From positions 1 to 33,207 of the IMG/VR virus record IMGVR_UViG_3300035211_000217: a stretch of 33,207 bases of DNA; one strand, written 5' to 3'. Position 1 is the first letter of the stretch, and the number at the start of each line of letters is the position of its first letter. Positions 174 to 27,564 of the stretch are shown in pieces. The notes under the pieces were generated by a model that searched no databases, had not been told where the DNA came from, and was given only the letters and a program-made list of their open reading frames with translations. A program made the translations under genes and the position numbers. This stretch comes from a virus.

Positions 174-1060
174 TGTCAGGGAAGCTACCTGAAAACCGGA
201 TGAAGATTAAGGCGATTTTACCGTACTTTGGAGGCAAGAGAAATTTGGCGCCGAGGATTGTCGAGATGCTGGGCGATCACCGGGTATACTGGGAGCCGTT
301 CTGCGGGTCCATGGCGGTCCTCATGGCAAAGCCGCCCTGTGTAATGGAGACGGTAAACGACCTTCATAAGGACCTGATTAATCTTGCTCGTGTCATCCAG
401 GACGTGAAATTAGCCAACAGACTATACAGGAAAATGCGGCGGACCTTAATGCACGAGCAGCTATTTCGTGAAGCGGCTGAAAGATATAAACAGAGAGGTT
501 ATTATAAAAATCTCGATTCGCCGGATTTCGACAGGGCCTATGAATATCTTTTACTTTCCTGGCTTGGCAGAAACGGTGTTACCGGCACACATAGTTACAA
601 TCAGGGATTCTGCGTCCGGTATACGGCAAACGGTGGACATGCAGCCAAAAGATTTCAGTCGGTCATCGATTCGATATATGCCTGGCGGAGAAGGCTCGCT
701 AATGTTACTATCCTTGACCGCGATGCCTTCGAGCTGCTGGAGCGCATCGATGACAAAAAAGGCACTGTAATATATATCGACCCGCCCTACATAAAAAAAG
801 GGGCTAAGTATATTCACGATTTTAAAGAGACCGACCATTGGCGATTGGCGGAATTGCTCAATAAATTTGATAAAGCTCGAATCGTTGTCAGCTATTATGA
901 TCATCCAAAGCTTTATGAGCTGTATCCCGACTGGCAGCGGGTTGAAATAAATATATCAAAATCATTAGTTAATCAGGGGATGAGGTATAAAAAAACCAAA
1001 ATAATAGCAAATGAAGTTCTGCTTGTTAATAAGAAAATTCAAAGTAAGGGACTGTTTTAA
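173..1060 (+). CDS. Dam-like N6-adenine DNA methyltransferase (D12 class)
   Basis: This protein should transfer a methyl group from S-adenosylmethionine to N6 of adenine in DNA. Residues 19-22 are FGGK, the expected N-terminal SAM-binding motif of the Dam/D12 family. EPFCGS follows at 41-46, and the catalytic DPPY is at 203-206 in the context YIDPPY. The length of 295 residues fits the family. The start is coupled to the upstream stop; Met10 (MKIKAILP) is a possible alternative start just before the motif. No restriction endonuclease is adjacent, so it looks like an orphan phage methylase used for restriction evasion or timing control. The target sequence cannot be read from the protein; GATC is only a family-based guess. 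Confidence 0.93.
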   Translation: MSGKLPENRMKIKAILPYFGGKRNLAPRIVEMLGDHRVYWEPFCGSMAVLMAKPPCVMETVNDLHKDLINLARVIQDVKLANRLYRKMRRTLMHEQLFREAAERYKQRGYYKNLDSPDFDRAYEYLLLSWLGRNGVTGTHSYNQGFCVRYTANGGHAAKRFQSVIDSIYAWRRRLANVTILDRDAFELLERIDDKKGTVIYIDPPYIKKGAKYIHDFKETDHWRLAELLNKFDKARIVVSYYDHPKLYELYPDWQRVEINISKSLVNQGMRYKKTKIIANEVLLVNKKIQSKGLF

Positions 1061-2987: not shown

Positions 2988-4009
2988 CAAAAACTCCAAA
3001 TAAAACTCGGTCCCGCCGAAAGGCGGGCTCAAAAGATAAGCCCCCGCGGCGCCTGAGCGGGGGTAAGCGTCTGCCCTTTACTCCCGTCTTCGCAAAGCGG
3101 CTCGGTTATGAATGTGCGGATATGGCGGCGGCGGATATCGAGCTGCATAAAGAAAGGCCGAGACTGCGCAGGACACTGGCAGAATATCTTGAGAGATATC
3201 AGCCGCTTCGCAGCGGCTGGGAAAGGGGCCAGCTGCTTCGCAATTTAAGGGCCTGTGCCGGTGCCATTATGACGGTCAGCCAGACGGCAAAGAAGCTGGG
3301 ATTCGAGCACAGTATGCAGCTCAGGGAGCTGCTCGACAGTGACGCCGAGATAAACAGTTTGTGGGAGCAGACGAGGATCGATACCGTTGCAAAGGCAAAG
3401 ACCGCACTGGTCAAGGTGGCCGAAGAGGGTAATCAGCAGGCGATAAAGGCGATAGAGAATTTTCTCTACGACGAGGGCGAAGGCCGCGGCGGGTCGGCCA
3501 ATATAAATTACGCGAAACTGACCGTAAGCCAGATGGCCGAGCTCTTCGATGTCAGCCGCCAGACGATACATGCCTGGTATACCAAAAACGGACTGCCCCG
3601 GGCGGGTGACGGTACCATCAATTTAAAAGATGCGATCAGATGGTTCGAGGGCTTTACGAAATCCAAGGTAACAGATACGGCGCCTCTGCCGTCAGACGCA
3701 CTGAGAAACCTGAAGGCCGAGCAGATGAAGCTGAACCTGGCCGAACGGCGTCACGACCTGCTGGACAGGGCCGAGGTGATCGGCGGCCTGGCGGCTCGAT
3801 GGCAGAAGATAACTTCCGGATTCCGCTACCGCACGCGTGAGCTGGCGACGATGGTGCATAGCCAGACGGTGGAAAAAACCACCGATATACTAAAACGGTT
3901 CTTCGGCGAGCTCCAGGAAGGATGGCTGGATGTGCCGGAGTTTCTGTACCTGCCCGCTGAAGCGGAACAAAAATATATCGAACTGCTTGAACTGATTAAG
4001 GAAAATTAA
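2984..4009 (+). CDS. terS: Terminase small subunit, Nu1-like
   Basis: The small terminase recognises phage DNA and loads the large subunit for packaging. Residues 179-222 read LTVSQMAELFDVSRQTIHAW followed by GLPRAGDGTINLKDAIRWFE, the winged HTH signature of the lambda Nu1 group. An upstream segment at about 85-160 (MTVSQTAKKLGF, then DTVAKAKTALVKVAEEG) resembles a second HTH-type region as in other small terminases, so the 341-residue protein is longer than Nu1 and may combine two DNA-binding parts. The C-terminal half is helical, suited to oligomerisation and large-subunit contact. Two strong GC hairpins lie within the first 27 codons (3012-3027 and 3041-3063). The large subunit follows after a repeat-bearing gap. 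Confidence 0.85.
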   Translation: MTKTPNKTRSRRKAGSKDKPPRRLSGGKRLPFTPVFAKRLGYECADMAAADIELHKERPRLRRTLAEYLERYQPLRSGWERGQLLRNLRACAGAIMTVSQTAKKLGFEHSMQLRELLDSDAEINSLWEQTRIDTVAKAKTALVKVAEEGNQQAIKAIENFLYDEGEGRGGSANINYAKLTVSQMAELFDVSRQTIHAWYTKNGLPRAGDGTINLKDAIRWFEGFTKSKVTDTAPLPSDALRNLKAEQMKLNLAERRHDLLDRAEVIGGLAARWQKITSGFRYRTRELATMVHSQTVEKTTDILKRFFGELQEGWLDVPEFLYLPAEAEQKYIELLELIKEN

Positions 4010-4123
4010 AATTAAAAATGCAAAATGCAAAATTAAGGACAAGCTCCGCCTGATATTTCAAAAGCCGCTTCGCGGAGCGAATCGTCGGTTTTAATATTTG
4101 ATATTAGATATTTGATATAATTA
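4010..4123 (+). repeat. Dispersed AT-rich intergenic repeat, copy A
   Basis: The gap begins with AAATGCAAAATGCAAAATT and ends with TTTGATATTAGATATTTGA-type sequence, with a GC-rich core holding the inverted pair GCTCCGC (4043-4049) and GCGGAGC (4072-4078). Related left and right arms recur in five other gaps between genes of this window. Confidence 0.7.
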
Positions 4124-6055
4124 ATGGTAGCGATAGCTGAAAAATTTATTGTATTACCCATCCAGCCGGAGGAGGAGGCGGTCTTAAAGGCCCGTACGAG
4201 GCCCGCCCTTATAGACTGGCTGGAGAATAACTATTACCTGACCGGCGGGACCAGCGCCGTCGAGGGCCTGTGGAGCCGTGAGTATACACCGTATTTCGTG
4301 CCGATAGCGGCGTGTCTGGATGATACTACTACGCGCGAGGTGTGGATATACGCCTGCAGCCAGTCGGGTAAATCGACATTTGGGACCGGCTTTACCGGTT
4401 ATATTACCGACTGTATGCCCGGCCCGACGATGGAGATAATGCCGACCAAGGACGATGTGAAGAACCGTATCGAGGCCAGGATCCGGCCGATGTTCGCCGC
4501 CAATGAGAGCCTGCTGGCCCATGTACGCGGTCACAACGTTAATAATATCTTCATAGGCAAGCAGACGGTGATGGACCATATGATCCTGTATATCGGATGG
4601 GCGACTACGGCTGAGGCGATGGCGGACAAGCCGGTCTGCTATGTCAAGGCGGATGAGACGGGTAAATACCCGCCGTATGTAGGAGAAGAGGCCGACCCAA
4701 TATCCTTATTGCGCAAACGCCAGAGGTGGTTTAAGGACCGCAGTAAGTTTCTGGCCATGACGACGCCGGTAACCGCCGGCGATATGAGCGACCAGAACTG
4801 GCAGAGAGGCGACTGCTGCGAGTGGTGGGCGCCGTGCCAGCACTGCGGCAAGTGGCATGAGATCAAATGGGAGAACGTAAAAATAGACCGGTACAGGGAC
4901 AATCGCGGTAAGTGGCGGTTCTACGCCGAAAGCGTATACAGCAAGGGCGGTCGGGCCCGGTACGTATGCCCGCGGTGTGGCACTTTTTGGTCGGAGGATG
5001 ACCGATGGAACACGGTCTGCCGCGGCAGGTTCGTACCGGATGGCTGCAGTGTTGACGATACGGGCCGGATAACCGGTACATCCAGAGAGTCCGCGTACAA
5101 GAGCTGCAGGATCCACGCGTTAATGCTGCACCCGATGGTAGAGACGGTAACGAACCTGGTCTGTGAGTTCGTCAATGCCCAGAAGCAGAAAGAGATGGGC
5201 AATATTCAGCCGCTGAAAGACTTCTGGAACTCTCAGCTCGCACGACCGTGGCGGCAGACACGGGCGGAGACCGATATCGAGCGGCTAAAGACCCATATCG
5301 GCTCATACGCCGCACAAATAGTGCCTGTGGGTGTGGAGCTGCTAACTGCTGGCCTGGACGTTCAGAAGGACCATTTGTTCCTGCGGGTACTTGGCTGGGG
5401 CTATCTGGGTGAGTTCTGGAGTATCTTCGAGCAGAGGATAGAGACCGGGCCTACCGACCGGCTGGATAATTTGGAGAAGGTTATACCGTTTCTTACCCGC
5501 AGATGGCCGGCCCTGGAGGGTAAGGATATCCAGTACCGGACGGCGGCGGCGGCAATCGACCGGGGCTATAATACCGAGGAGGTGGACGCGCTGTGCGTAA
5601 AGTATATCGGGACGGTGAACCTGATCCCGGTGGCCGGCGACGATACGGTAAAGAAGCGGCAGTGGCGAACCGGCTACGCCGCTGGCGGACGGATTAAAAG
5701 ATATGATTTGAACGTGACCAGCTATAAAGATGCACTGTTCAGGTCGTATTTCGAATCGACGGTGCCCGGTCCCGGCTACGGGCACCTGCATAAAGATACC
5801 CAGTACGAGGTACTGGAGCACCTGACCGCCGAGCATAAGGTGATAGAGACAAAGGGCAATAAGTTAATACGGGCCGGATGGAAGCTGAAAAAAGAGGGCC
5901 GGGCCAACCACTACTGGGACTGCGATGTATACGCACGGGCGGCGGCCGAGATAGCCGGACTCTGGTCCATACCCGGGCCGGAGGCCGGAGAGATTAAAGG
6001 GACGCCGGTAATCGGCAGACCGGTCGGAACGCGAAAGATAAGGACGAAATATTGA
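4124..6055 (+). CDS. terL: Terminase large subunit, GpA family
   Basis: This is the packaging motor and nuclease that pumps DNA into the prohead and cuts at genome ends. Residues 79-85 (SQSGKST) are the Walker A loop. VCYVKADE at 171-178 is the Walker B with D177-E178. Two zinc-type pairs, C238/C241 and C282/C285, lie between the ATPase and nuclease parts, as is common in lambda gpA-type terminases. The nuclease shows D412 (AGLDVQKD), D479 (AAAIDRGYN) and D599/D601 (YWDCDVYA) as likely metal ligands. The length of 643 residues matches lambda gpA. It is intact, and the small subunit lies directly upstream. Confidence 0.96.
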   Translation: MVAIAEKFIVLPIQPEEEAVLKARTRPALIDWLENNYYLTGGTSAVEGLWSREYTPYFVPIAACLDDTTTREVWIYACSQSGKSTFGTGFTGYITDCMPGPTMEIMPTKDDVKNRIEARIRPMFAANESLLAHVRGHNVNNIFIGKQTVMDHMILYIGWATTAEAMADKPVCYVKADETGKYPPYVGEEADPISLLRKRQRWFKDRSKFLAMTTPVTAGDMSDQNWQRGDCCEWWAPCQHCGKWHEIKWENVKIDRYRDNRGKWRFYAESVYSKGGRARYVCPRCGTFWSEDDRWNTVCRGRFVPDGCSVDDTGRITGTSRESAYKSCRIHALMLHPMVETVTNLVCEFVNAQKQKEMGNIQPLKDFWNSQLARPWRQTRAETDIERLKTHIGSYAAQIVPVGVELLTAGLDVQKDHLFLRVLGWGYLGEFWSIFEQRIETGPTDRLDNLEKVIPFLTRRWPALEGKDIQYRTAAAAIDRGYNTEEVDALCVKYIGTVNLIPVAGDDTVKKRQWRTGYAAGGRIKRYDLNVTSYKDALFRSYFESTVPGPGYGHLHKDTQYEVLEHLTAEHKVIETKGNKLIRAGWKLKKEGRANHYWDCDVYARAAAEIAGLWSIPGPEAGEIKGTPVIGRPVGTRKIRTKY

Positions 6056-6118
6056 TTAAAATTAAAAAAATCAAAACGCAAAGTGCAAAATTAAGGACTT
6101 AGAAAGGATTCGAATATT
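6056..6118 (+). repeat. Dispersed AT-rich intergenic repeat, copy B (left arm only)
   Basis: The gap holds the left arm of the repeat family (AAAATT...GTGCAAAATTAAGGAC) and lacks the GC core and right arm. It then runs into AGAAAGGA, which serves as the ribosome site of the next gene. Confidence 0.55.
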
Positions 6119-6628
6119 ATGACGAAAAAGAAAAAAGAAAGCGTACAGCGTACAGCACCTGAGGCACAGGCGGACAGCGCAGAGCAAGAAGACAGCGTAC
6201 AGCAAGAAGACAGCGGACAGCGTACAACGGACAGCGCCGGAATTAATAAGGATAATCAATCTGCAACAGTTATACCTTTACCTCAAATTGGACCGATAGT
6301 TATTCCTAACGATACGGACAAAGAAAAAGCTCCCGAAGATGAAAAAACCTGTTCTGATAAAGATCCCGATAAGACTAACGATACGGACAAAGAAAAACAT
6401 GAGCCTGTCCTGAGCGAAGTCGAAGGAAAGAAAGAAAGTGTCGCTCCGACACCCAAATGGCACTTTCCGGATGCCAGGCGGTGCACGAGGTGTAAGGGCA
6501 CCAATACCGAGGCCTATCATACCGACGTCAAAAAAGGCAGGCAGTACCGCCGCTGCCGGGCACCGATATGCCGAAAGAAATATTCGGTGAACGGGGTGAG
6601 GGCGGATGATCGGAATAAAAAATCATAA
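6119..6628 (+). CDS. Zinc-ribbon protein with repeat-derived N-terminal half
   Basis: The C-terminal 50 residues hold CTRC, then 20 residues, then CRAPIC, a C-x2-C-x20-C-x4-C zinc pattern. This spacing and the basic Y/R-rich run before the third Cys recall the Ogr/Delta phage late activators and Com-like zinc fingers, but identity is not proven. The N-terminal 115 residues look assembled from repeats: a Gln/Ser/Asp-rich stretch from heptamer repeats at 6141-6238, a 23-base direct repeat at 6306-6328 and 6375-6397 (NDTDKEK twice), and the dispersed repeat at 6404-6427 encoding PVLSEVEG. The N-terminal half is therefore probably disordered and recently expanded. It follows the terminase as the start of the accessory block. 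Confidence 0.7.
   Translation: MTKKKKESVQRTAPEAQADSAEQEDSVQQEDSGQRTTDSAGINKDNQSATVIPLPQIGPIVIPNDTDKEKAPEDEKTCSDKDPDKTNDTDKEKHEPVLSEVEGKKESVAPTPKWHFPDARRCTRCKGTNTEAYHTDVKKGRQYRRCRAPICRKKYSVNGVRADDRNKKS
6141..6238 (+). repeat. Degenerate 7-bp repeat cluster (AGCGNNN) inside a gene
   Basis: Units such as AGCGTAC, AGCGGAC and AGCAAGA recur at about 7-base spacing. Because 7 is not a multiple of 3, the encoded peptide changes unit by unit (QRTAPEAQADS, then QEDSVQQEDSGQRT). A cleaner copy lies at 8290-8320 and a third at 15029-15049. Confidence 0.65.
6404..6427 (+). repeat. Dispersed repeat CCTGTCCTGAGCGAAG-type inside a gene
   Basis: The 24-base stretch beginning CCTGTCCTGAGCGAAG encodes PVLSEVEG in the gene frame. 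I recognise this as a short repeat seen in many environmental bacterial genomes, where its other frames read FDFAQD and TSLRTG; both appear on the opposite strand here. Confidence 0.65.
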
Positions 6629-6709
6629 AAATATTTTCGTCAAAAGTCCGCATTTTCAGCCTTAAAACCGTGATTTGTAAAAAATCTTTAAAAAACACAA
6701 ATTTTTCTG

Positions 6710-6738
6710 TTGACGAAATACTATTAGGCTCGTATAAT
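6710..6738 (+). promoter_or_regulatory. Consensus sigma-70-type promoter
   Basis: TTGACG at 6710-6715 and TATAAT at 6733-6738 are separated by exactly 17 bases in an AT-rich 157-base gap. This is the best promoter in the window and sits 48 bases before the first of three cassette genes. Confidence 0.75.
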
Positions 6739-6771
6739 TATAATAGATTTACAAGTTAATAACAATTTTTA

Positions 6772-6788
6772 GAAAGGGTTGAAAAATG
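6772..6788 (+). promoter_or_regulatory. Shared cassette leader, copy 1
   Basis: GAAAGGGTTGAAAAATG, ending in the start codon, is identical at 6772-6788, 7474-7490 and 7839-7855. GAAAGGG is the ribosome site. In copies 1 and 3 the identity extends upstream through TTTTTA. Confidence 0.75.
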
Positions 6789-7406
6789 AAAACAGAAACA
6801 AAAAAACGAATTTATGAAAAAGCAAAGGCGGCAATATTAGCTGGTGACATTAGCTTAACTTATGTACGGGTGATTGATGACCGGCTTGCAGCCCCACACC
6901 CCGTCTATGGCTTTGGTCGAAGCAATATTATTTTTTTGCCGGACGAAATCTCGAAATTAGCAAGTGATGATTATATTGCCGAATTAAAATCAGCCCGCCA
7001 GGCTGAACTTGACCGCAATGCGGAACTCTCGCGAATACGGCGAGAAGAAGAAGAAAAAAAACTCGCCGCACACCGGGATGAAAGAGTCTGGGGATTAACC
7101 GGTTTATACATTGAAGAATCAACCGGCCCGCGTTGGACGTTAAGAGAGCTTGAGGCATTTCGTGATTGGAGCGGCTATTTGAGGCTTAAATACCCTGCGA
7201 GTTCTGAGATTCATTTTACACGTTTTACGCCGAATGGTGACGACATTGTTGAATCTTACGATGAATCTGCCCGGTGGGAGGATGTCTGCAACTATGGGCC
7301 GCCATATCACAGCTTTCGGGATTTTGTACGGGAACTCGAAAAATATACTAAGCGGCCATATCAACCGACGACCGACGAATCACTGGAGAAAGTTGGCTTA
7401 TTTTAA
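6786..7406 (+). CDS. Cassette gene 1, unknown function
   Basis: A 206-residue protein of unknown family, first gene behind the consensus promoter. It has a lysine-rich helical start, a segment VYGFGRSNIIFLPDEISKL, a charged helix at about 75-100 (RQAELDRNAELSRIRREEEE), and a C-terminal part rich in Trp, Tyr and Phe. There is no signal peptide or membrane helix. Its stop codon begins a 27-base sequence repeated exactly after cassette gene 2. Base composition is more AT-rich than the flanking late genes, and it has its own promoter and terminator, so it looks like a moron-type insertion. Confidence 0.7.
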   Translation: MKTETKKRIYEKAKAAILAGDISLTYVRVIDDRLAAPHPVYGFGRSNIIFLPDEISKLASDDYIAELKSARQAELDRNAELSRIRREEEEKKLAAHRDERVWGLTGLYIEESTGPRWTLRELEAFRDWSGYLRLKYPASSEIHFTRFTPNGDDIVESYDESARWEDVCNYGPPYHSFRDFVRELEKYTKRPYQPTTDESLEKVGLF

Positions 7407-7450
7407 CGATTTTTCAACCAGCCCCTTGCCTTGTGGCGGGGGCTGGCTTT
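7404..7450 (+). terminator. Cassette terminator, copy 1
   Basis: The stem CCAGCCCC at 7418-7425 pairs with GGGGCTGG at 7439-7446, followed by CTTTAATT, a weak U-tract. The first 27 bases, from the stop codon at 7404 to 7430, are identical to 7776-7802. Confidence 0.6.
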
Positions 7451-7473
7451 AATTGAAAATATTAACTTTTAAC

Positions 7474-7490
7474 GAAAGGGTTGAAAAATG
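7474..7490 (+). promoter_or_regulatory. Shared cassette leader, copy 2
   Basis: Identical 17-base leader ending in the start codon of cassette gene 2. It lies about 28 bases after the first terminator stem, and no clear promoter was found in that gap. Confidence 0.7.
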
Positions 7491-7778
7491 ATGCGAGAAA
7501 AAGATGTTCAAGACGCAGTTTCGGAAAACAAAGTAGTTTTTGACCGATGTGGTTCGCCTATAATAAAACATGTAGGCACAATTTCAGAACGATTTTATCA
7601 CTTGCTATCTAAGGAACACCAAAAAAGGTTGAAAGAAAACCCTCCTAAAATTATACACGGAGAGCCTGGAAAACCTTTTAGCCGGTCTCCGAGAGTTGGG
7701 GGTAAATTGCCATCTTCTGAGTTTGATGAAGATGTGGATAGGTGGAACTACGAAGAAGAAACTGGGACTGAAGATTAA
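7488..7778 (+). CDS. Cassette gene 2, unknown function
   Basis: A 96-residue charged protein beginning MMREKDVQDAVSENK and ending in an acidic tail (DEDVDRWNYEEETGTED). A tandem ATG pair at the start leaves Met1 or Met2 open; the shared leader ends exactly on the first. No motif or membrane segment is visible. It shares leader and terminator with gene 1, but the two proteins show no obvious similarity, so the flanks are conserved while the payload differs. Confidence 0.65.
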   Translation: MMREKDVQDAVSENKVVFDRCGSPIIKHVGTISERFYHLLSKEHQKRLKENPPKIIHGEPGKPFSRSPRVGGKLPSSEFDEDVDRWNYEEETGTED

Positions 7779-7824
7779 CGATTTTTCAACCAGCCCCTTG
7801 CCGGTGTTGGTGGGGCTGGGTTTT
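7776..7824 (+). terminator. Cassette terminator, copy 2
   Basis: CCAGCCCC at 7790-7797 pairs with GGGGCTGG at 7812-7819, followed by GTTTTAATA. The region from the stop codon to the loop is identical to copy 1 for 27 bases, while the loop interior differs. Confidence 0.65.
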
Positions 7825-7838
7825 AATAACAGTTTTTA

Positions 7839-7855
7839 GAAAGGGTTGAAAAATG
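7839..7855 (+). promoter_or_regulatory. Shared cassette leader, copy 3
   Basis: Third identical leader, ending in the ATG of a 57-codon gene. TTTTTA immediately upstream matches copy 1. Confidence 0.7.
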
Positions 7856-8026
7856 GCATTTGAACAAGTTATACCGACAAAAGAAGATAGATTTTTTGAA
7901 AGTTGTATAGGTCTTTGTCAGGATATCGTTAATCAATCAGATAACGAATTGATTGTTCAAAAAGCAAAAGAAATACTAAAAGAGTTTGAGGATGAAGGCA
8001 CCGCAAGCGGAGAGATTAAACAATGA
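7853..8026 (+). CDS. Cassette gene 3, small helical protein
   Basis: A 57-residue frame starting at the third copy of the shared leader. The product (MAFEQVIPTKEDRFFESCIG, then a helix DNELIVQKAKEILKEFEDEG) is acidic and helical, with two Cys near residues 18 and 22. Its stop overlaps the start of the HTH gene by 4 bases (ATGA), so the two are translationally coupled. This coupling and its small size would fit a partner or antidote of the HTH protein, but no known family is recognised. Confidence 0.65.
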   Translation: MAFEQVIPTKEDRFFESCIGLCQDIVNQSDNELIVQKAKEILKEFEDEGTASGEIKQ

Positions 8027-8208
8027 TCGACTTTCGTAAAGAGATAAAAAAGCTGATGAAAAAACAGAAAATCAATACGCCCGAACTGGCCAGGCGGGCC
8101 GGACTGAACGCGCAGACGCTGTATAATTTTCTGGCGGGCAAAAGCGAAATGACTGCCGGGAATCTCTCTGTAATTCTCGATATCCTGGGGATCAATAAAA
8201 TCAAATAA
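8023..8208 (+). CDS. Small XRE-type helix-turn-helix protein
   Basis: A 61-residue protein that is essentially one Cro/CI-type HTH domain. Residues 18-40 (NTPELARRAGLNAQTLYNFL) match the helix-turn-helix, followed by GKSEMTAGNLSVILDILG, the usual last two helices. It should bind operator DNA as a dimer. It is coupled by a 4-base overlap to cassette gene 3. It may regulate its own cassette promoter at 6710-6738 or the late genes. No partner repressor is seen in the window, so lysogeny control cannot be inferred from it alone. Confidence 0.85.
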   Translation: MIDFRKEIKKLMKKQKINTPELARRAGLNAQTLYNFLAGKSEMTAGNLSVILDILGINKIK

Positions 8209-8210
8209 CC

Positions 8211-8222
8211 GCCCTTCGGGGC
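8211..8222 (+). terminator. Short GC hairpin after HTH gene
   Basis: GCCC-TTCG-GGGC, a 4-base stem with a stable TTCG tetraloop, two bases after the HTH stop and followed by TTATTT. The stem is short and the T-run broken, so termination would be weak. Confidence 0.35.
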
Positions 8223-8242
8223 TTATTTAGGAAAGGAAATTT

Positions 8243-8602
8243 ATGAAAGATAAGAAACTGACGACCGCACTTGAAAAGGCCCAGGAAAACAGCATACAGC
8301 GTACAGCGGACAGCGGACAGGAAAAAGATATGCAGCCGGAGGCGAAGTTTTTGAATTTATTGAAAAATGAGCCTGGCCTGGCAGCCAGGCTGATCGAGGC
8401 GCTCGATACCGGCAGGTGGCTGGTGACTATACACTTTCAGAAGAAATACAAACCGGAGGACGAACATGATCTGCATCATTATTACTGCCAGAAAAATTAT
8501 CCGAAAAACGATGTACCCGTATCTCTGAAGAATACGGCGGCGGATTTCATAGCAAAGGAAATGCCGAACGCCGACCTGCCGGAAGACAGCCGGTGGCATT
8601 AA
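8243..8602 (+). CDS. Hypothetical protein with repeat-derived segment
   Basis: A 119-residue protein preceded by GGAAAGGAA. Residues 16-27 (SIQRTADSGQEK) are encoded by a clean heptamer array at 8290-8320, so this piece is repeat-derived. The rest has a leucine-rich helix (FLNLLKNEPGLAARLIEAL), a strand WLVTIHF, and a His/Tyr-rich stretch HDLHHYYCQKNYP. No family is recognised. It shares the heptamer insertion with the zinc protein at 6119, which shows that this repeat invades coding DNA in this genome. Confidence 0.6.
   Translation: MKDKKLTTALEKAQENSIQRTADSGQEKDMQPEAKFLNLLKNEPGLAARLIEALDTGRWLVTIHFQKKYKPEDEHDLHHYYCQKNYPKNDVPVSLKNTAADFIAKEMPNADLPEDSRWH
8290..8320 (+). repeat. Heptamer tandem array CAGCGKA, four units
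   Basis: The units are CAGCATA, CAGCGTA, CAGCGGA and CAGCGGA, then CAG. The array lies within the coding frame of the gene at 8243. Confidence 0.75.
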
Positions 8603-8710
8603 AGAAAATTAAAAATAAAAAATCAAAAATCAAAACGCAAAACGACATCAATCTATTTAAAAAATTTTATTTTTGATCTTTAATATTTGATATACTTTTG
8701 TGGTGACATT
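8603..8710 (+). repeat. Dispersed AT-rich intergenic repeat, copy C
   Basis: The gap is almost entirely A/T. The left part has AAAAATCAAAACGCAAAAC and the right part TTTTTGATCTTTAATATTTG, related to the arms of copy A. The GC core is missing. GTGGTGA at 8700-8706 may serve the next gene. Confidence 0.6.
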
Positions 8711-8971
8711 ATGAGAGACACAAGACAGGAGTCAGGAGAGATTGAATGTGGGCATTTTCATTCGATAGGCGAAAACGATTTTATTGTTCCGTATGAGGAT
8801 ATGAATACGGAAGGACTTCCGGACCATTATCAGACGCCTGGGAAAATAAAATATAACGACGATCCTTTCCAGTATTTTGTACCGATGCAAATGATGTCCG
8901 TCGCGCTGGCCGGTCTTTTTGTCTTTTTGTTATTTATAATAATATTATTCGCAGTGATTTCACTGAGATAG
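8711..8971 (+). CDS. Small protein with C-terminal membrane helix
   Basis: ATG 8711 is preferred over a TTG at 8687 that lies in repeat DNA. The 86-residue product has a soluble, acidic N-terminal part with a Cys and several His (IECGHFHSIGEND), then VPMQMMSVALAGLFVFLLFI and further hydrophobic residues to the end. This makes it a tail-anchored membrane protein. It could be a phage membrane accessory such as an exclusion factor. No family is recognised. Confidence 0.6.
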   Translation: MRDTRQESGEIECGHFHSIGENDFIVPYEDMNTEGLPDHYQTPGKIKYNDDPFQYFVPMQMMSVALAGLFVFLLFIIILFAVISLR

Positions 8972-9003
8972 AAAATGGTATCGGGAAAGGAGAAAACTGG
9001 ATT

Positions 9004-9180
9004 ATGAAGATAAATTTTTTAAAAGAAGGCAATAAGCTGATACCCGTTGCCGAAAAGGACGGCCGGCCGGACCGGAACGATCCTGTTGAAAATATAATAA
9101 AGACCACCGTTAGTTCGGGACAGGAAGAGCAGACTATAATGACCATAACCGTAACTGTTGCGGAAAAAGCCGGAGGTTAA
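9004..9180 (+). CDS. Small hypothetical protein, 58 residues
   Basis: ATG 9004 is preceded by GGGAAAGGAG at 8983-8993, though the spacing is a little long. The product MKINFLKEGNKLIPVAEKDG ends in an alternating Thr/Val strand (TIMTITVTVAEKAGG). It sits tightly between two other small genes. No family is recognised. Confidence 0.55.
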   Translation: MKINFLKEGNKLIPVAEKDGRPDRNDPVENIIKTTVSSGQEEQTIMTITVTVAEKAGG

Positions 9181-9182
9181 TT

Positions 9183-9389
9183 ATGGCAGTTTATCCATAT
9201 AAAGTAACAAGATGCCTTAAAGGCCATCAATTATATATTAGGAATGGCCTCGATTATTTTTGTAAGAAATGTGGTAATATTGATATAAATGATTTGCGCC
9301 TACAAATTTCAAAATACATTTTTCGAGTTCGGTCATTAAAAAGAAGAGGTATTAAAATTAAAAAATTAAGGGTTAAAAATAATGGCTGA
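9183..9389 (+). CDS. Small basic zinc-ribbon protein
   Basis: A 68-residue protein with CLKGHQLYIRNG, then YFCKKCGNIDIND, giving a C/H...CxxC knuckle, followed by a very basic tail (FRVRSLKRRGIKIKKLRVKN). The order fits an RNA- or DNA-binding zinc ribbon. It starts 3 bases after the previous stop and is markedly AT-rich. Confidence 0.6.
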   Translation: MAVYPYKVTRCLKGHQLYIRNGLDYFCKKCGNIDINDLRLQISKYIFRVRSLKRRGIKIKKLRVKNNG

Positions 9390-9432
9390 AAATAAAACCA
9401 TGACCGGTCCGTTATAGCAGAAAAAATCGCGA

Positions 9433-9738
9433 ATGCGAATCAAAGAAAATTATAATGTAGTAAGTGACATTATGGTGGATATAAAATTAGCTGAAGTTAG
9501 ATTGTTATTACAGATAGATGCGAAAAAATATTTAGGACTTAAAATCATATCGATATCAGCAAGTTCAGAATTTCGTAATCAATTGATTAAAGAGTGGGAA
9601 GATAAAGAGGGACAAAAATATGATGTTTTAATGGGTATGTTTTATTGGCTTGGTATACCATTAATCGAAGCTGAACATTTACCCGATGGATTCATTTTGC
9701 ATGTTTCAAATGGTTCACAAGAGTTTATGCATCAATAA
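9433..9738 (+). CDS. Hypothetical protein, AT-rich gene
   Basis: A 101-residue soluble protein of unknown family, with a helix NVVSDIMVDIKLAEVRLLLQ and an alternating C-terminal half (GMFYWLGIPLIEAEHLPDGF). Codon use is rich in A/T-ending codons compared with the head genes that follow, suggesting separate origin. It is the last gene before the non-coding boundary at 9739-9980. No clear ribosome site lies upstream (AAAAAATCGCGA), so the start is uncertain. Confidence 0.5.
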   Translation: MRIKENYNVVSDIMVDIKLAEVRLLLQIDAKKYLGLKIISISASSEFRNQLIKEWEDKEGQKYDVLMGMFYWLGIPLIEAEHLPDGFILHVSNGSQEFMHQ

Positions 9739-9769
9739 TCACCCGATTTATAGACACCCGAAAATAGAT

Positions 9770-9784
9770 GTGCCGATCCGGCAC
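9770..9784 (+). promoter_or_regulatory. Palindrome GTGCCGATCCGGCAC
   Basis: Perfect 6-base arms with a 3-base centre and no T-run behind. It is the first of two such palindromes in this 242-base gap. The 10-mer TCTGGTAAAA also occurs twice between them (from 9785 and 9806). Apart from these and the terminators downstream, no gene is seen in 9739-9980. Confidence 0.4.
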
Positions 9785-9818
9785 TCTGGTAAAACTTTCC
9801 CTTAATCTGGTAAAATTT

Positions 9819-9838
9819 GTGCCGAAACGGCACTTTTT
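9819..9838 (+). terminator. Hairpin GTGCCGAAACGGCAC plus TTTTT
   Basis: A 6-bp stem with AAA loop directly followed by five T, an acceptable intrinsic terminator for the accessory block. The 15-base palindrome is identical to that at 13649-13663. Confidence 0.6.
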
Positions 9839-9907
9839 ACTACAATTACCTTGAATTAATCATATCTTTTTAGTCGAATGTAGCTGTATAAAGTGATTAT
9901 TCGAAGA

Positions 9908-9946
9908 AGCTGTCGGCGGCGGATGATCTGCCGACAGCTTTTTTTT
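9908..9946 (+). terminator. Strong rho-independent terminator
   Basis: AGCTGTCGGC at 9908-9917 pairs perfectly with GCCGACAGCT at 9930-9939, and eight T follow. It is the strongest terminator in the window and separates accessory genes from the head module. Confidence 0.85.
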
Positions 9947-9947
9947 C

Positions 9948-9980
9948 GCCGCCGACTGCAAATTTAAGGCGGCTTTTTTT
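9948..9980 (+). terminator. Second hairpin with T-run ending at a start codon
   Basis: GCCGCC at 9948-9953 pairs with GGCGGC at 9968-9973, followed by seven T that run straight into the ATG of the first head gene. Its 5' side immediately follows the T-run of the previous terminator. Confidence 0.5.
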
Positions 9981-10250
9981 ATGTCACTTACAAGCTCATC
10001 GACAATAGACGATGCACTTAATCAATACAACGATAACCTTCTCTGGGAGGGCGATATCACAAAGGCCCAGAACGCGCTCGAGGCGGTGCGATATATCCTG
10101 GCCAACAGGCCGGTCAGGATAGCATCGGGTGAAAGGAATATCGACTTTGCGGAGCTCCAGCTCGAGAAAAATAAGCTCGAGCAGTTTGTAAGCAGCAGCG
10201 GTACCAGCGTCAACCGCGTCACGTTTACAAGGGGGAGAATGCTCACGTGA
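9981..10250 (+). CDS. gpW-like head-tail connector
   Basis: An 89-residue protein located where lambda gpW lies, between the terminase and portal genes. Residues 27-72 (KAQNALEAVRYILANRPVRI, then IDFAELQLEKNKLEQFV) align in layout with gpW: helix, a short beta hairpin carrying a basic or polar turn, then a helix. gpW seats under the portal and is needed to stabilise packaged heads. It overlaps the portal start by 4 bases. The start has no good ribosome site, only T7 and a hairpin; translation may depend on that structure or on upstream flow. Confidence 0.7.
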   Translation: MSLTSSSTIDDALNQYNDNLLWEGDITKAQNALEAVRYILANRPVRIASGERNIDFAELQLEKNKLEQFVSSSGTSVNRVTFTRGRMLT

Positions 10251-11761
10251 AAGTCAGACAGCCAACACCCGAAATCATGAATGCCAATAAGCTGATCGTC
10301 AAAGGACAGTTCGGGAAATACGGTGCCCTTGGCTACCGTTCGGCGAAACTGGCGGTAAGGGAAGGCCGCAGCTATAACGGCGGGTCCGGCGATATCCACA
10401 TGCGATATGACAGGCCACAGCTTATCAGGCAATCGAGGGCGTTCTATCGCGATAATCCCCTGTATAAAGGCATGATAGATACGGCGGTCGATTATATTAT
10501 GGCCGAGGGGTTTGAGCTGGATGTCAATACGACCAGTCCGCCGCTCAATAAAAAGATAGAAGGGCTCTGGAAATCGTTCTGGTCTCGTCCGGAGATAAGG
10601 GGCCTGCTATCGGGAGCCGATACGGCACAGATGATATGCAGAGAGCCGCTGCTCTGCGGCGACACGCTGGCAATAAAGACCGATAAGGGCCTGCTGCAGT
10701 TGATAGAGGCCGAGCAGATAGATGGAGGGAATAAGGGTGAGCAGGGAATTGAAAAAGACAAATACGGCACGCCGCAGCGGTTCTGGATATCGCCATGGGG
10801 CGACCACGGTGCGATTAAGATATCATCGGCCAGAAAATACGAGGCCAAAGATGTGCTTTTTCTAACCTGTCCGGACAGGCCGTCGTCAACGCGGGGCGTG
10901 CCGGCGGCGCAGGCGTCCTTTGCCATGCTGCACAGGATAAACGATATCTGCGATTCGGAGGCAATCGCATGGCAGATGCTCGCCAGACTGGCGGTATCGG
11001 TGAATAAAAAACAGGCCGACCAGGAGGGATTTAACCTTTCACGGCAGGACCCGAACAAGACATCATCACAGGCCGAAGGCGATATGGCGACCAGACTTAC
11101 GGAGCTGGACTACGCATTGATATTCTGGGGCCAGGATAACGATGAGATCAAGGGTATAGATCGTAATATTCCCGGCAAGAACTTCCCGGAGTCACTTCGA
11201 ATGTTTCTTCGACTGCTGGGCCTGCCGCTGGGCCTGCCGCTGGAGCTGGTACTGCTGGACTGGACGAAGAGTAATTATTCGCAAAGCCGGGCGGTACTCG
11301 AGCAGGCGTTCAAGAAGTTCAAGAAGCTGCAGAAAAAGGCGGAGGATTTTTTCTTTAATCCGGTATTCGAATGGAAGCTCGAGCAGTGGCGAAAGACGGA
11401 ATCACTGGGTAACAGAAAAGAGATCCAGTATTCGTGGATAAAGCCGACGTTCCCGTGGATAGACCAGCTCAAGGAGGCCCAGGCCCGGGGCGAGGCGGTG
11501 GACCGCGGCTTTATGTCGTATTCGGAGGTATGCAAGAGCCGGGGTCTGGACAGTGACGATGTCCTTGCCGCTCGTGAGCAGGAGGTAATTAAAGCGATAG
11601 AGATAGCCAGACGCATAGAGAATAAATACGAAGGCGGCATTTCGGTGCCGTGGCAGATATTCGCGGGACTCGAGGCCGGGGCCGGTAAGGGTGGCGGCAA
11701 GAACAGCGGGCAGGCCGACGGAAAAGAAGATAAAAAAGAGGAAGAAACGGAGAATCAATAA
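10247..11761 (+). CDS. Portal protein, lambda gpB family
   Basis: The portal forms the twelve-subunit ring for DNA entry and exit. The 504-residue protein has the family layout: an N-terminal YRSAKLAVREGRSYNGGSGD, the segment YDRPQLIRQSRAFYRDNPLY, a central part with QLIEAEQIDG, and DRPSSTRGVPAAQASFAMLH followed by long helices. IFWGQDNDEIKGIDRNIPGK and LRMFLRLLGLPLGLPLELVL, then a long basic helix (SRAVLEQAFKKFKKLQKKA), match lambda-type portals. The C-terminal 35 residues are Gly/Lys/Glu-rich and probably disordered. It overlaps both neighbours (ATGA upstream, TAATG downstream). Confidence 0.93.
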   Translation: MKVRQPTPEIMNANKLIVKGQFGKYGALGYRSAKLAVREGRSYNGGSGDIHMRYDRPQLIRQSRAFYRDNPLYKGMIDTAVDYIMAEGFELDVNTTSPPLNKKIEGLWKSFWSRPEIRGLLSGADTAQMICREPLLCGDTLAIKTDKGLLQLIEAEQIDGGNKGEQGIEKDKYGTPQRFWISPWGDHGAIKISSARKYEAKDVLFLTCPDRPSSTRGVPAAQASFAMLHRINDICDSEAIAWQMLARLAVSVNKKQADQEGFNLSRQDPNKTSSQAEGDMATRLTELDYALIFWGQDNDEIKGIDRNIPGKNFPESLRMFLRLLGLPLGLPLELVLLDWTKSNYSQSRAVLEQAFKKFKKLQKKAEDFFFNPVFEWKLEQWRKTESLGNRKEIQYSWIKPTFPWIDQLKEAQARGEAVDRGFMSYSEVCKSRGLDSDDVLAAREQEVIKAIEIARRIENKYEGGISVPWQIFAGLEAGAGKGGGKNSGQADGKEDKKEEETENQ

Positions 11762-13164: not shown

Positions 13165-13608
13165 ATGACAACACAAATGAACTCGCCGATGAACTTTACC
13201 GCCGGTGAGGACCTGTCGGCCTTTAGAAGGGTCAAGGTGACGGCCAGCAGGGTGGTATGGCTGGCCGATTCGGTGGACTTCGGGATAGGCGTGGTACAGG
13301 CGGCGGTGGACCAGTCGGAAGATGCAAGGGCGTGCGTTCGCGGCTATAACGATGGGACATGCAAGATGGTGGCCTCCGGGGCGATCAGTTCAGGAACACC
13401 GGTATATGCCGCCGACGACGGCAAGATAGCGTCCTCCGGGACGATCAAGGTCGGTACGGCACTGGATGTCGCGACGGCCAATAACGATGTGATCGAGGTT
13501 ATCCCGCAGCTCAATCTGAATAACCAGTCGTCAAGCTCATCGAGCAGCTCGTCTTCATCTTCATCATCGAGCAGCTCGTCTTCATCTTCATCATCGAGCA
13601 GCTCGTAA
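13165..13608 (+). CDS. Capsid decoration-type protein with polyserine tail
   Basis: Between protease and major capsid, where lambda gpD sits. The 121-residue body is a Gly/Val-rich beta protein (GEDLSAFRRVKVTASR, SGTPVYAADDGKIASSG, IKVGTALDVA), close in character to the DUF2190-type capsid-stabilising proteins of many phages. Residues 122-147 are 26 serines in a row. Ribosome site GAAAGGA is at 13150-13156. Decoration proteins are present in hundreds of copies on the capsid surface, so a serine tail here would coat the head if it points outward. The body is a full-length domain and the tail is simply added before the stop. Confidence 0.8.
   Translation: MTTQMNSPMNFTAGEDLSAFRRVKVTASRVVWLADSVDFGIGVVQAAVDQSEDARACVRGYNDGTCKMVASGAISSGTPVYAADDGKIASSGTIKVGTALDVATANNDVIEVIPQLNLNNQSSSSSSSSSSSSSSSSSSSSSSSSSS
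13528..13605 (+). repeat. Polyserine tract 1 (26 codons), with 27-bp tandem repeat
   Basis: Serine is spelled with mixed TCN and AGC codons. The 27-base unit starting AGCAGCTCGTCTTCATC occurs twice in perfect tandem (13543-13569 and 13570-13596). Confidence 0.9.
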
Positions 13609-16212: not shown

Positions 16213-16644
16213 ATGATTGGACATGGAACTACATTATCCGGTGCCTCGCTCGGGACGATAGGCAAGCTGACTAATCTCGACTGGTCAGGGATCATTAACG
16301 ACGATGTCGAGATTACTGATTTCGATTCTCCGGACCTGTTTCGCGAGTTCGAGCCCGGTCTGAAGGATGCCGGTGAGATAACGGCGGACCTCAAATATGA
16401 TGCGACCCTGTTCAAGACACTGTTCGATGAAGTCAAATCGCCGACCACCCAGCAGTTTACGATAACAAGGGGCAGTAATTCGCTAATTGTGCCGGGCTAT
16501 CTCAAAAGCACTAATCTGGGCGTCCCGATGGGCGATACGATGATGTCACCGATTACCATCAAATGTACGGGAAAGCCGTACTATCCTTCGTCCAGCTCGT
16601 CTTCCAGCAGCTCATCGAGCAGCTCATCGTCAAGCAGCTCGTAA
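16213..16644 (+). CDS. Tail tube protein (gpV position) with polyserine tail
   Basis: The 125-residue body is a beta protein with Asp/Gly turns (INDDVEITDFDSPDLFREFE, LKDAGEITADLKYD, GSNSLIVPGYLKSTNLGVPM), as in tube proteins that stack as hexamer rings. Residues 126-143 are 18 serines. In lambda gpV the same C-terminal position holds a surface Ig-like domain that is dispensable for tail assembly, so the serine tail replaces a surface appendage. AAAAGGAGC at 16199-16207 is a good ribosome site. The following genes are the tail chaperones, as expected. Confidence 0.82.
   Translation: MIGHGTTLSGASLGTIGKLTNLDWSGIINDDVEITDFDSPDLFREFEPGLKDAGEITADLKYDATLFKTLFDEVKSPTTQQFTITRGSNSLIVPGYLKSTNLGVPMGDTMMSPITIKCTGKPYYPSSSSSSSSSSSSSSSSSS
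16588..16641 (+). repeat. Polyserine tract 2 (18 codons)
   Basis: An uninterrupted serine run of mixed TCN/AGC codons ending at the tail tube stop. AGCAGCTC and TCATCGAGC sub-motifs are shared with tract 1. Confidence 0.9.
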
Positions 16645-17184: not shown

Positions 17185-17388
17185 ATGAGTGCCTACGAGC
17201 TGCAGGAGAAGAGGCTGCTGGAAGAGATAGAGCCGTGGGGCGTTAAGGCGATGGCCAAGGCGGCCTGGCTGGTCTGCTGCTCGATGGGCTATAAAAAGAG
17301 CTTTAATAAATTTTATGAATTTTTCTGTAAATATGATAATCAGCACAGCGAAGAGCAGGAAGACGGGTTCTTCGAGCAGTTCAGATAA
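17185..17388 (+). CDS. Tail assembly chaperone T-like frame, expressed by -1 frameshift
   Basis: An ATG opens this frame at 17185, but the conserved part begins before it: from 17095 the same frame reads ...RFRHRLAGWLGWTVAELEER, then MSAYELQEKRLLEEIEPWGV. The LG.TV.EL..RMSA.EL and EPWG pattern is the usual signature of gpT-type tail proteins, so the real product should be a G-T fusion made by slippage at 17089-17095. The frame relation is -1 and the frame is open across the junction. Internal starting at 17185 would remove part of the domain and has no good ribosome site. Confidence 0.82.
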   Translation: MSAYELQEKRLLEEIEPWGVKAMAKAAWLVCCSMGYKKSFNKFYEFFCKYDNQHSEEQEDGFFEQFR

Positions 17389-17471
17389 GAAAATCATAAT
17401 GCAAAATTCAAAATGCAAAATTAAGGACATGCTTCGCCTGATATTTTAAGAGTAGTTTCGCGGATTTGATC
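17389..17471 (+). repeat. Dispersed AT-rich intergenic repeat, copy F
   Basis: Left arm AATTCAAAATGCAAAATTAA followed by GGACATGCTTCGCCTGATAT, closely matching copy A (GGACAAGCTCCGCCTGATAT). The right arm is replaced by TTTCGCGGATTTGATC. Confidence 0.7.
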
Positions 17472-19188: not shown

Positions 19189-19689
19189 ATGTGGTACAGA
19201 TTTCCGCAGCTCGAAGGAAGAATGGTTATCGAGGGTTATTCGAAGGGTAAGGCCTTCGATCCTACTTACCGGTCCGATTTTACGGCCGGTTATCAGGTCC
19301 GCCGCTCGCGGGCGACCTGGGTACCTGACCAGTACGAATGTACATTGCGGGTGCTGACGGAAACGGATCGAGCGGCACTGGAGACACTGCAGGAAAATGT
19401 AAACTACGGGGCGGACAAGTTCTGGTGGTATAACCGGAAAGAGGGCAGGACGATTTTCGTATGCTTCGCCGAAGGATGCCTGCCGCTCAAATTCAATATT
19501 GAGCCCAAAAACCCCAATAAGTATCAGACCAAACTGATACTTCGACAAGTGGATACGGTCGAATCGGAAAGCTCGTCACTGTCAAGCTCATCGAGCAGCT
19601 CGTCTTCGTCTTCATCGTCGAGCAGCTCGTCTTCCGAATCTTCCAGCAGCTCGTTTTCGTCTTCTTCTTCTTCTTCAAGCAGTGCTTAG
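19189..19689 (+). CDS. Minor tail protein, gpM-like, with polyserine tail
   Basis: A protein of 166 residues whose first 127 form a beta-rich domain (MWYRFPQLEGRMVIEGYSKG, YQVRRSRATWVPDQYECTLR, FWWYNRKEGRTIFVCFAEGC). The order tape measure, M, L, K, then J supports an M-like tail-tip protein. Residues 128-165 are serine broken only by Leu, Glu and Phe, and the protein ends in Ala. The tail is again attached at the C-terminus of a complete domain. The gene starts 10 bases after the tape measure with GGTGA as a modest ribosome site. Confidence 0.78.
   Translation: MWYRFPQLEGRMVIEGYSKGKAFDPTYRSDFTAGYQVRRSRATWVPDQYECTLRVLTETDRAALETLQENVNYGADKFWWYNRKEGRTIFVCFAEGCLPLKFNIEPKNPNKYQTKLILRQVDTVESESSSLSSSSSSSSSSSSSSSSSSESSSSSFSSSSSSSSSA
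19570..19683 (+). repeat. Polyserine tract 3 (38 codons, few interruptions)
   Basis: Mixed TCN/AGC serine codons interrupted by single Leu, Glu and Phe codons, each one base away from a serine codon or nearly so. The end contains a plain TCTTCTTCTTCTTC run. Confidence 0.88.
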
Positions 19690-23154: not shown

Positions 23155-24987
23155 ATGGCCGACTGGATTGGAATAAATAATTCACATTATCACGACCACT
23201 GTGGGGACGAACCGGAAGGTTTAATCGAGGATGGTTTGGATGGCAGTGATGTTTGGTCTCATCTGGAAAACGAAACACATTGGCTGATTTTGGACTTGGG
23301 GGCAATTTACAATGTACAAAAAATTAGAGCCAGATCACTTGGTAGTTATGATCCTATTGATGTTGATGTATATGTAAATAATACCGGTTCTGCCCCGTGG
23401 GGAGATGCTGTTGCGTCCGGTATAACTACATGGCAGGATTGCGATCCATTTAATTGGGTTGAAACTGAGCTTACTCATAAAAATGGTAGATATATTTATA
23501 TAGTAATTAACGATACAGAAAACAATCACAACTTGATTTTTGGAAAATCTGGTGGACCTTATGATACAATCTTAGATGTCTATGTAGATACGTCATCCTC
23601 CAGCTCCAGCAGTTCTTCGTCCAGTTCATCATCCTCCAGTTCGCAGTCATCATCGAGCAGCTCATCGTCTTCCAGCTCATCATCCTCAAGCTCTTCCTGG
23701 TCGTCTTCGTCATCGTCACTTAGTTCATCATCATCGTCCAGCTCGTCCCAGTCGTCATCATCAAGCTCGCTATCTTTAAGTTCATCGAGCAGTTCGTCGC
23801 AGTCATCATCATCCAGCTCGCAGTCATCATCGAGCAGTTCATCGAGCAGCTCATCGTTTTCCAGCTCAAGCTCGTCGCTGTCGAGCAGCTCGTCATCTTC
23901 GAGCTCATCGTCTTCCAGCTCATCATCATCCAGCTCATCATCTTCCAGCTCATCGTCATCGAGCTCGTTTTCTTCGTCTTCGAGCAGCTCATCGAGCGAG
24001 GCCGGTAATGTAATAGACTGGACGGCGGGGCTGCTGACCTATAAAGGCGTGACATATAACATCGCCGCCGGCGCCACCGACAAGAAGTATATCTACTGGG
24101 ACCCGAATTATACGACTATATTTCGTGACACCAACGATCTTAATGACGTATTTAATTCTAACGGGTGGGTGATGTGCATAAACGATGAAGGATCGTCCCA
24201 TCCGGTCTACGGCCTGCCGGTCATACACGCCCGGCTGATACAGGCGGCGACTATAACAGCGGATTTATACGCCCAGCTTCGCCAGACTTACGTATATACT
24301 TATAACGAGCCCGGCCTGGATTCATCTCATCCCGCCGAATTTCCCTTCAAGATCGTATCGGAGATGACCTCGATAATATCGGTGCTGCTGTCGTTTCGAA
24401 TAATGCCGTACAGGGCTTATTCAACGGCGGCGGCATCGGGGGGTGGTTCGACGCCTACAACCGATACCTCTTACGCTGTTACACAAAGTGCCACGGTCAC
24501 TATAAATTCAGGCGGAACGTCTAATACTAATACCGGCTCCGGTTCCGGGACAGGTTCAAGTACTCCGTCAATATCAATTCAAAGCACTTACATCAGCAGT
24601 GTGCCGGGCTCACATGGTCACGGCACTACGGGAGGCAGCCATACACATACCGAATCAAGTCATTCGCATGGAATTAATTCTCACACGCATACTGCCAATG
24701 GGCATACTCATGTTATGAACGGTCACTATCATAATGTAACTATTGCACCGCACTCGCATGGCATAACTTACGGTCTGCATGAGGAGAGCAATTCGCCGAC
24801 GGTCAATTTCAATATAAACAACGGCTCCGGCTTCGGAGGGGCATCGGGCAATTATACGACGGACCAGCTCGATATCGATATTACCTCGGACATAACGGGG
24901 ACCGGGTGGAAGGCGATAAGATTCAATACGGACTTGCGGTGCCGGATTGCAGCAATAATAGAATGCAAGCTGGACGTTACAGCTTAG
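23155..24987 (+). CDS. Large tail fiber: discoidin-like domain, polyserine linker, HxH-rich tip
   Basis: A 610-residue probable receptor-binding fiber. Residues 1-146 look like a galactose-binding or F5/8-type (discoidin) beta domain (THWLILDLGAIYNVQKIRAR, then GRYIYIVINDTE). Residues 147-281 are a polyserine run of about 135 codons broken by Gln, Trp, Leu and Phe. A second domain follows (IDWTAGLLTYKGVTYNIAAG). The C-terminus carries seven HxH motifs in about 50 residues (HGH, HTH, HSH, HTH, HTH, HYH, HSH), the arrangement used in the T4 gp37 tip to hold iron ions, then an Asn/Gly-rich part. The N-terminal domain DNA is more AT-rich than the C-terminal part, suggesting domain exchange. It follows the J-like hub. 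Confidence 0.82.
   Translation: MADWIGINNSHYHDHCGDEPEGLIEDGLDGSDVWSHLENETHWLILDLGAIYNVQKIRARSLGSYDPIDVDVYVNNTGSAPWGDAVASGITTWQDCDPFNWVETELTHKNGRYIYIVINDTENNHNLIFGKSGGPYDTILDVYVDTSSSSSSSSSSSSSSSSSQSSSSSSSSSSSSSSSSSWSSSSSSLSSSSSSSSSQSSSSSSLSLSSSSSSSQSSSSSSQSSSSSSSSSSSFSSSSSSLSSSSSSSSSSSSSSSSSSSSSSSSSSSSSFSSSSSSSSSEAGNVIDWTAGLLTYKGVTYNIAAGATDKKYIYWDPNYTTIFRDTNDLNDVFNSNGWVMCINDEGSSHPVYGLPVIHARLIQAATITADLYAQLRQTYVYTYNEPGLDSSHPAEFPFKIVSEMTSIISVLLSFRIMPYRAYSTAAASGGGSTPTTDTSYAVTQSATVTINSGGTSNTNTGSGSGTGSSTPSISIQSTYISSVPGSHGHGTTGGSHTHTESSHSHGINSHTHTANGHTHVMNGHYHNVTIAPHSHGITYGLHEESNSPTVNFNINNGSGFGGASGNYTTDQLDIDITSDITGTGWKAIRFNTDLRCRIAAIIECKLDVTA
23593..23997 (+). repeat. Polyserine tract 4 (about 135 codons)
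   Basis: Short modules such as TCATCATCCTCCAGC, TCATCGAGCAGC and TCGTCTTCC recur without one regular period. Interrupting codons are CAG, TGG, CTT/CTA/TTA-type Leu and TTT/TTC, mostly one base from Ser codons. Confidence 0.9.
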
Positions 24988-25824: not shown

Positions 25825-25840
25825 ATACGAGGTGGACATA

Positions 25841-26437: not shown

Positions 26438-26458
26438 AAGAATTTGAAGGGAGTCATT

Positions 26459-27340: not shown

Positions 27341-27552
27341 TGAAAATATTACATGAAAACCAAAATCCATCAAATGATCCAGTTTTAAATCGTCCTGTAA
27401 AATTTTGCGTAGATTGGTTTTGTGTTAACCAAAATTGTGAGTCTCATAAAATAAAAGGATTTGGTGATGGAGGCTCTCTTTATCCTCCCGGAAAAGTTGA
27501 ATTTACGTGCGAATATTGCGGAAAACAAGAAACAGTTCTTATCTTTATATAA
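27340..27552 (+). CDS. Small AT-rich zinc-ribbon protein in the sugar island
   Basis: A 70-residue protein with FCVDWFCVNQNCES and FTCEYCGKQETV, giving two Cys pairs of zinc-ribbon type. Its start overlaps the epimerase stop by 1 base (TGATG). The DNA is more AT-rich than its neighbours, so it may have been inserted into the sugar gene run. Function is unknown. Confidence 0.62.
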   Translation: MKILHENQNPSNDPVLNRPVKFCVDWFCVNQNCESHKIKGFGDGGSLYPPGKVEFTCEYCGKQETVLIFI

Positions 27553-27564
27553 AGTGAAATATAT

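Follow-up and report, generated by a model that had tools for sequence, protein, structure and literature searches.

The window (the whole stretch of DNA that we analysed, 33,207 nucleotides of viral record IMGVR_UViG_3300035211_000217) contains, next to the terminase genes, what appears to be an accessory (moron) operon, which ends in a gene for a small DNA-binding protein. Its parts and the genes that border it are:

6119-6628 (+): left border gene, after the terminase; C-terminal zinc-ribbon-like; kept where the operon is missing.
6710-6738 (+): sigma-70-like promoter TTGACG-17-TATAAT, which would drive the operon; 11 of 12 consensus bases.
6772-6788 (+): leader 1, with the Shine-Dalgarno (SD) sequence GAAAGGG, spacer, and ATG; its arm at 6777-6787, GGTTGAAAAAT, is complementary to the tails.
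6786-7406 (+): payload gene A, 206 amino acids.
7409-7419 (+): tail 1, the antisense arm ATTTTTCAACC, immediately 3' of the stop codon.
7418-7446 (+): hairpin 1, CCAGCCCC...GGGGGCTGG, 3' of tail 1; resembles a terminator; T run weak.
7474-7490 (+): leader 2, arm at 7479-7489.
7488-7778 (+): payload gene B, 96 amino acids; a search gave no relatives.
7781-7791 (+): tail 2, again with the antisense arm ATTTTTCAACC.
7790-7819 (+): hairpin 2, CCAGCCCC...GGGGCTGG, 3' of tail 2 and followed by GTTTTAA.
7839-7855 (+): leader 3, arm at 7844-7854.
7853-8026 (+): payload gene C, 57 amino acids; lacks its own tail, and its stop codon overlaps the start of the next gene.
8023-8208 (+): HTH_26 (Cro/CI) regulator, 61 amino acids, the fourth gene of the operon.
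8243-8602 (+): right border gene, which adjoins the left one where the site is empty (L035 and L261).

A preliminary description had reported identical leaders and identical tails around unrelated genes, with the first leader behind the window's best promoter, and these observations are correct. The 17-nt leader GAAAGGGTTGAAAAATG is identical at three starts (6772, 7474, and 7839), and no further site with up to 3 mismatches is present in the window (shuffle mean 0.19). The tail TTAACGATTTTTCAACCAGCCCCTTGCC is identical behind the first two genes (7403 and 7775) over 28 nt, and it runs into a hairpin and a short T run. Proteins A, B, and C are mutually unrelated (Pfam, PHROGs, NCBIfam), and none of them matches a family, including known anti-CRISPRs. 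(The predicted structure of A is a poor model, with a pLDDT of 42.) The promoter is the best of the sigma-70-like sites in the scanned stretch 6000-10400, and leader 1 lies downstream of it. A promoter of this type is found at the same position in phage L030, and promoter-like TTGAC(A/T) motifs precede the leaders in L031, L223, L244, L246, L249, and L202. The window promoter also includes CTATTA-14-TAATAG, a candidate operator for the HTH protein, which is not found in all of the promoters that we compared.

The preliminary description overlooked the HTH gene, the missing tail of gene C, and the fact that the leader and tail arms form perfect 11-nt inverted repeats. As RNA, the tail is antisense to a stretch that extends from the end of the SD sequence through the spacer to the AU of the start codon.

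Elsewhere in the window, AT-rich dispersed intergenic repeats (AAAATTAAAAATCAAAA...TTTTTGATATTT; 4003-4122, 6059-6098, 8588-8713, and 17386-17464) lie at gene borders and are common to L030 and L035. Long poly-serine tracts, C-terminal or in mid-protein, are encoded by near-repetitive DNA in proteins of the structural region (13165-13608, 16213-16644, 19189-19689, and 23155-24987). By reading, the late region (25240-31491) has a run of methyltransferase-, epimerase-, and glycosyltransferase-like genes.

Comparison with three other phages implies that the operon is an optional insert whose content is variable. In L030, whose terminase is 98% identical, the match to the window stops at 6798, a little way into gene A, and resumes at 8005, shortly before the HTH gene. 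A single other gene occupies the gap; the promoter, the leader, and the HTH gene are retained, and both the antisense arm of the tail and the ATG of the leader are lost. L035, also with a terminase that is 98% identical, lacks the promoter, leader, and HTH gene. In L261, a prophage in a Phycisphaerae-class genome (terminase 66% identical), the site is empty and the border genes are adjacent. Nor do the three payload genes always occur together, as L244 has gene A without B and C. So, the proposal of a cassette platform holds insofar as payloads are swapped at a fixed locus, but the type of flank follows the operon and not the gene.

We searched for related operons in three ways: with the leader (which found L007 and L015), with a loose pattern for the tail and no condition on the leader (L202, L217, L223, L031, and L237/L248), and with homologs of the HTH protein, ignoring the flanks (which added L244, L246, and L249). 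All seven of the loci found via the HTH gene alone have a leader-tail pair, and three of the seven are new. Most of the IMG/VR matches to the leader or to the loose tail are due to chance. The related operons share a layout beside the terminase: first a promoter and one or more leaders, then small genes that are unrelated to each other, a complementary tail that leads into a hairpin, and last a small gene of the HTH or RHH type. The letters of the flanks vary (GGATC..., GGGTC..., GGGTTA..., or GGGGTA...), with leader and tail changing together:

L244: leader GATCGAAAAATG, tail CATTTTTCGATC.
L223: leader GGATCAAAAAATG, tail TATTTTTTGATCC.
L202: leader GGGTAAAAAATG, tail CATTTTTTACCC.
L217 and L249: leader GGGTTAAAAAAT, tail ATTTTTTAACCC.
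L246: leader GGTCGAAAAAT, tail ATTTTTCGACC.
L007: leader AAGGGTTGAAAAAT, tail ATTTTTCAACCCTT, with about 870 nt between them.

Thus, the expectation that related phages would have the same flanks around other genes was borne out in part: cassette content varies and the exact leader is found with other genes (in L007 and L015), but the flank letters differ among phages. Where an operon has several cistrons, a common leader stands at most of the payload starts, and a single tail serves these; cistrons 2-3 of L246 and cistron 3 of L248 do not match the tail. In L027, the tail is present and the leader is complementary just in part (by reading), and the duplexes of L080 and L197 have a bulge or are shorter. 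Hairpins are present in nearly all members, with T runs of none to six that are often poor. The last gene encodes an HTH protein, or in L015 and L202 an RHH-like protein (assigned by reading; no Pfam match). The HTH protein of the window is 98% identical to that of L030, 69-78% identical to those of L244, L031, L223, and L246, and 47-49% identical to those of L237, L248, and L249.

The carriers are phages of different types, and the operon's placement differs: in the window, L030, L031, and L223, it follows terL; in L244 and L246, it follows the border gene that comes after the terminase; in L015, terL and terS lie on either side of it; and in L007 and L217, it diverges from the terminase genes. 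L217 also has a possible 11-codon leader peptide (MKHTDLVVVNN, positions 959-991, minus strand) immediately 5' of the payload leader. L080, which has a different terminase type, contains an array of small genes (1400-2520) with near-identical intergenic hairpins and TTTATTAACTTTTATTTGAAAGG spacers.

Across 13 operons, the leader and tail pair over about 11-14 nt. The energies of the cognate duplexes sum to −193.6 kcal/mol, as compared to a mean of −143.7 (standard deviation 8.7) if the tails are permuted, and none of 200,000 permutations reached the observed value. In a 13-column alignment of the 13 pairs, 92.9% of cells are paired and the covariation score is 0.298, versus 0.169 if shuffled (reached in 0 of 500 shuffles); the aligned rows are related and some have a common tail, so these counts are not of independent events and the shuffles are a guide rather than a probability. 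Four columns show compensatory double changes, and pairing collapses in slid registers. (The A/T run of the arm is invariant and contributes no covariation.) As background, in 1.96 Mb of other phage DNA, just 5 of 2,934 SD-ATG leaders are followed within 2 kb by a 12-nt complement, and none of those five complements sits behind a stop codon with a hairpin. In predicted minimum-energy folds of the payload mRNA, the duplex is present for 11 of 13 operons, spanning 300-965 nt, and shuffling the arm mostly abolishes it. For L244 and L249, the predicted fold leaves the last cistron unpaired. In several phages, the C-rich end of the arm also contributes to the base of the hairpin, and this role could be a partial source of the constraint.

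The preliminary description had suggested that the flanks might be used for recombination. Leader and tail would then act at the DNA level, as terminal inverted repeats or as homology arms, in the capture and exchange of unrelated genes, which would fit with genes bracketed by inverted repeats, with a swap of payload between near-identical phages that breaks just inside the leader, and with exact leaders in phages as unrelated as L007 and L015. However, flanks that vary among phages, and vary as pairs, do not behave as recombination sites, and one operon's different payloads have a common leader. Conversely, the second cistron of L244 is a homolog of the window's gene A (75% identity), yet both the leader and the tail of this gene differ between these phages, with the partners remaining complementary in each. 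Flank type is a property of the operon, not of the gene: the repeat did not travel with this cassette, which argues against travelling recombination sites and for selection on the pairing. Also, the non-Watson-Crick cells of the alignment include nine G-U and no A-C, with the other mismatches at duplex ends. As G-U is tolerated and A-C is not, the constraint seems to be on the sense RNA; a constraint on a DNA repeat would permit both. Several cistrons are served by one tail, the promoter is outside the repeat, and we did not see a recombinase or a target duplication on reading the locus. This use of the flanks therefore seems quite unlikely to us. The reverse strand offers no better account, as the complement of an ATG that could start an antisense gene is not conserved in the window, L007, L249, and L217.

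Another possibility is that pairing between 5' and 3' regions loops the mRNA, shields its ends from nucleases, and raises output. The same pairing and covariation would be expected, and the duplex does adjoin a stable hairpin and form in predicted folds of the whole mRNA. We consider this explanation unlikely because the duplex lies on the SD sequence, spacer, and AUG (reaching the AUG in several phages) rather than at the 5' end, and because internal cistrons have the arm too, where it is not needed to protect an end. Or, the pairing could have no function, if the leader is the standard strong start of this phage group and both leader and tail mimic the 3' arm of the terminator. Indeed, the C-rich end of the tail pairs with the 3' arm of its own hairpin in L202, L217, L223, L244, and others. 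But the T-rich half of the arm pairs with the A run of the leader and cannot pair with the 3' T run of a terminator, and cognate pairing is above chance. Nor is the leader a common start in the host: none of 397 Phycisphaerae-class genomes contains the extended leader (four matches in genome contigs were non-members), and the window has no near match to the 17-nt leader elsewhere. We give a functionless pairing little chance. A search of Rfam gave no relevant match.

On the sequence comparisons above, the best explanation of the flanks is an RNA pair in which the operon is antisense to itself, as a variant of two known kinds of regulation, fold-back and autoregulation by 3'UTRs. We propose that this is an accessory operon with variable payload whose 3' tail probably represses the cistrons of the same operon by pairing with their SD sequence and AUG. 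The complementarity, its covariation and sense-strand character, its location, the exchange of payloads, and the constant regulator can be read from the genomes; repression and its timing are what we infer from them. The tail would be an antisense copy of the operon's own translation starts, placed behind the last payload stop and before the hairpin, and in the sense RNA the transcribed tail would pair with the SD-spacer-AUG region of the payload cistrons. It might fold back in cis (like the fbi/tac elements of hok) or act in trans as a released 3' fragment (like OppZ or CarZ). Either way, pairing would block further initiation, so that a burst of product from the strong promoter would be followed by a quick shut-off, alongside repression by the HTH protein. 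Because the T runs are often weak, read-through into the HTH gene is likely.

The payloads give some indication of what such an operon may be for. A stand-alone, type II-like Cas2 is the second cistron in L031 (3270-3590) and L223 (10885-11205; PADLOC Cas2_II, 8.5e-22); its nearest solved chain is 6qxf, and Cas1 was not found in the L223 contig. A family of 150-156 amino acids is always the first cistron, in five operons (L223:10397-10864, L031:2778-3242, L244:441-905, L246:802-1263, and L249:2896-3345). This 155-aa family matches no known family, its AlphaFold model (pLDDT 80) has no match in the PDB, and a search of 392 Planctomycetota genomes and of annotated phages did not find it. The payload of the L007 operon (L185:2066-2761, minus strand) has a YkyB-like domain (PF14177, 4e-9). 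By analogy to acr-aca operons, the payloads might be anti-defense proteins.

Phage counter-defense genes need to be produced fast and then stopped, and the known brakes are mainly Aca-type proteins. If our proposal is true, then the co-varying antisense tail is an RNA brake that is built into the operon. We can also imagine, more tentatively, a phage-specific device in which each operon has its own leader "word" and a 3' antisense copy of it, so that any gene that gains the leader would come under built-in RNA feedback as well as repression by the terminal HTH or RHH protein; such operons would probably be for anti-defense. The combination of leader, complementary tail, hairpin, and HTH or RHH gene would then be a protein-independent signature for new accessory or anti-defense genes in uncultured phages, with the stand-alone Cas2 as a first candidate found via this signature.

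Several known systems have features in common with this operon. In hok/Sok-type toxin mRNAs, which encode a toxic membrane peptide and have an antisense antitoxin RNA, the 3' end folds back on the translation start in cis (fbi/tac). Similarly, predicted full-length folds for most of our operons have the 3' end paired with the start region, but the payloads are not small membrane toxins (by reading), and several cistrons have a common leader. A 5'-3' fold-back is also part of the folding of the aapA1 mRNA of Helicobacter (PMC6733600). OppZ and CarZ of Vibrio cholerae are autoregulatory small RNAs derived from 3'UTRs that feed back on translation initiation (PMC7398697). RNAs of this kind are discrete molecules that RNase E releases, end in a strong intrinsic terminator, depend on Hfq, and repress in trans. 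As with OppZ and CarZ, the 3'UTR near the terminator is complementary to the start site of the same operon. In contrast to them, the arm is immediately 3' of the stop codon and fits most payload cistrons via one leader word, and the pair co-varies between phages and belongs to phage accessory operons.

In cluster K mycobacteriophages, a short repeat, SAS, is found at the starts of a subset of unrelated genes, and both inverted-repeat arms of the related ESAS lie upstream of the start with a spacer of 4-13 bp (PMC3203893). Here too, a short sequence is repeated at the translation starts of unrelated phage genes, but the first arm is at the start and the second is behind the stop codon. Finally, anti-CRISPR operons end in aca genes (PMC9410906). 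Such operons also have, in the core promoter, an inverted-repeat operator for the HTH protein. Our operons are likewise built from a promoter, a set of small unrelated genes that changes among close relatives, and a conserved small HTH gene at the end, and one payload is a stand-alone Cas2. They differ in lacking a payload with a match to known anti-CRISPRs, in an HTH protein that matches none of the Aca proteins that we found, and in the RNA pair that has been added between the payload and the regulator.
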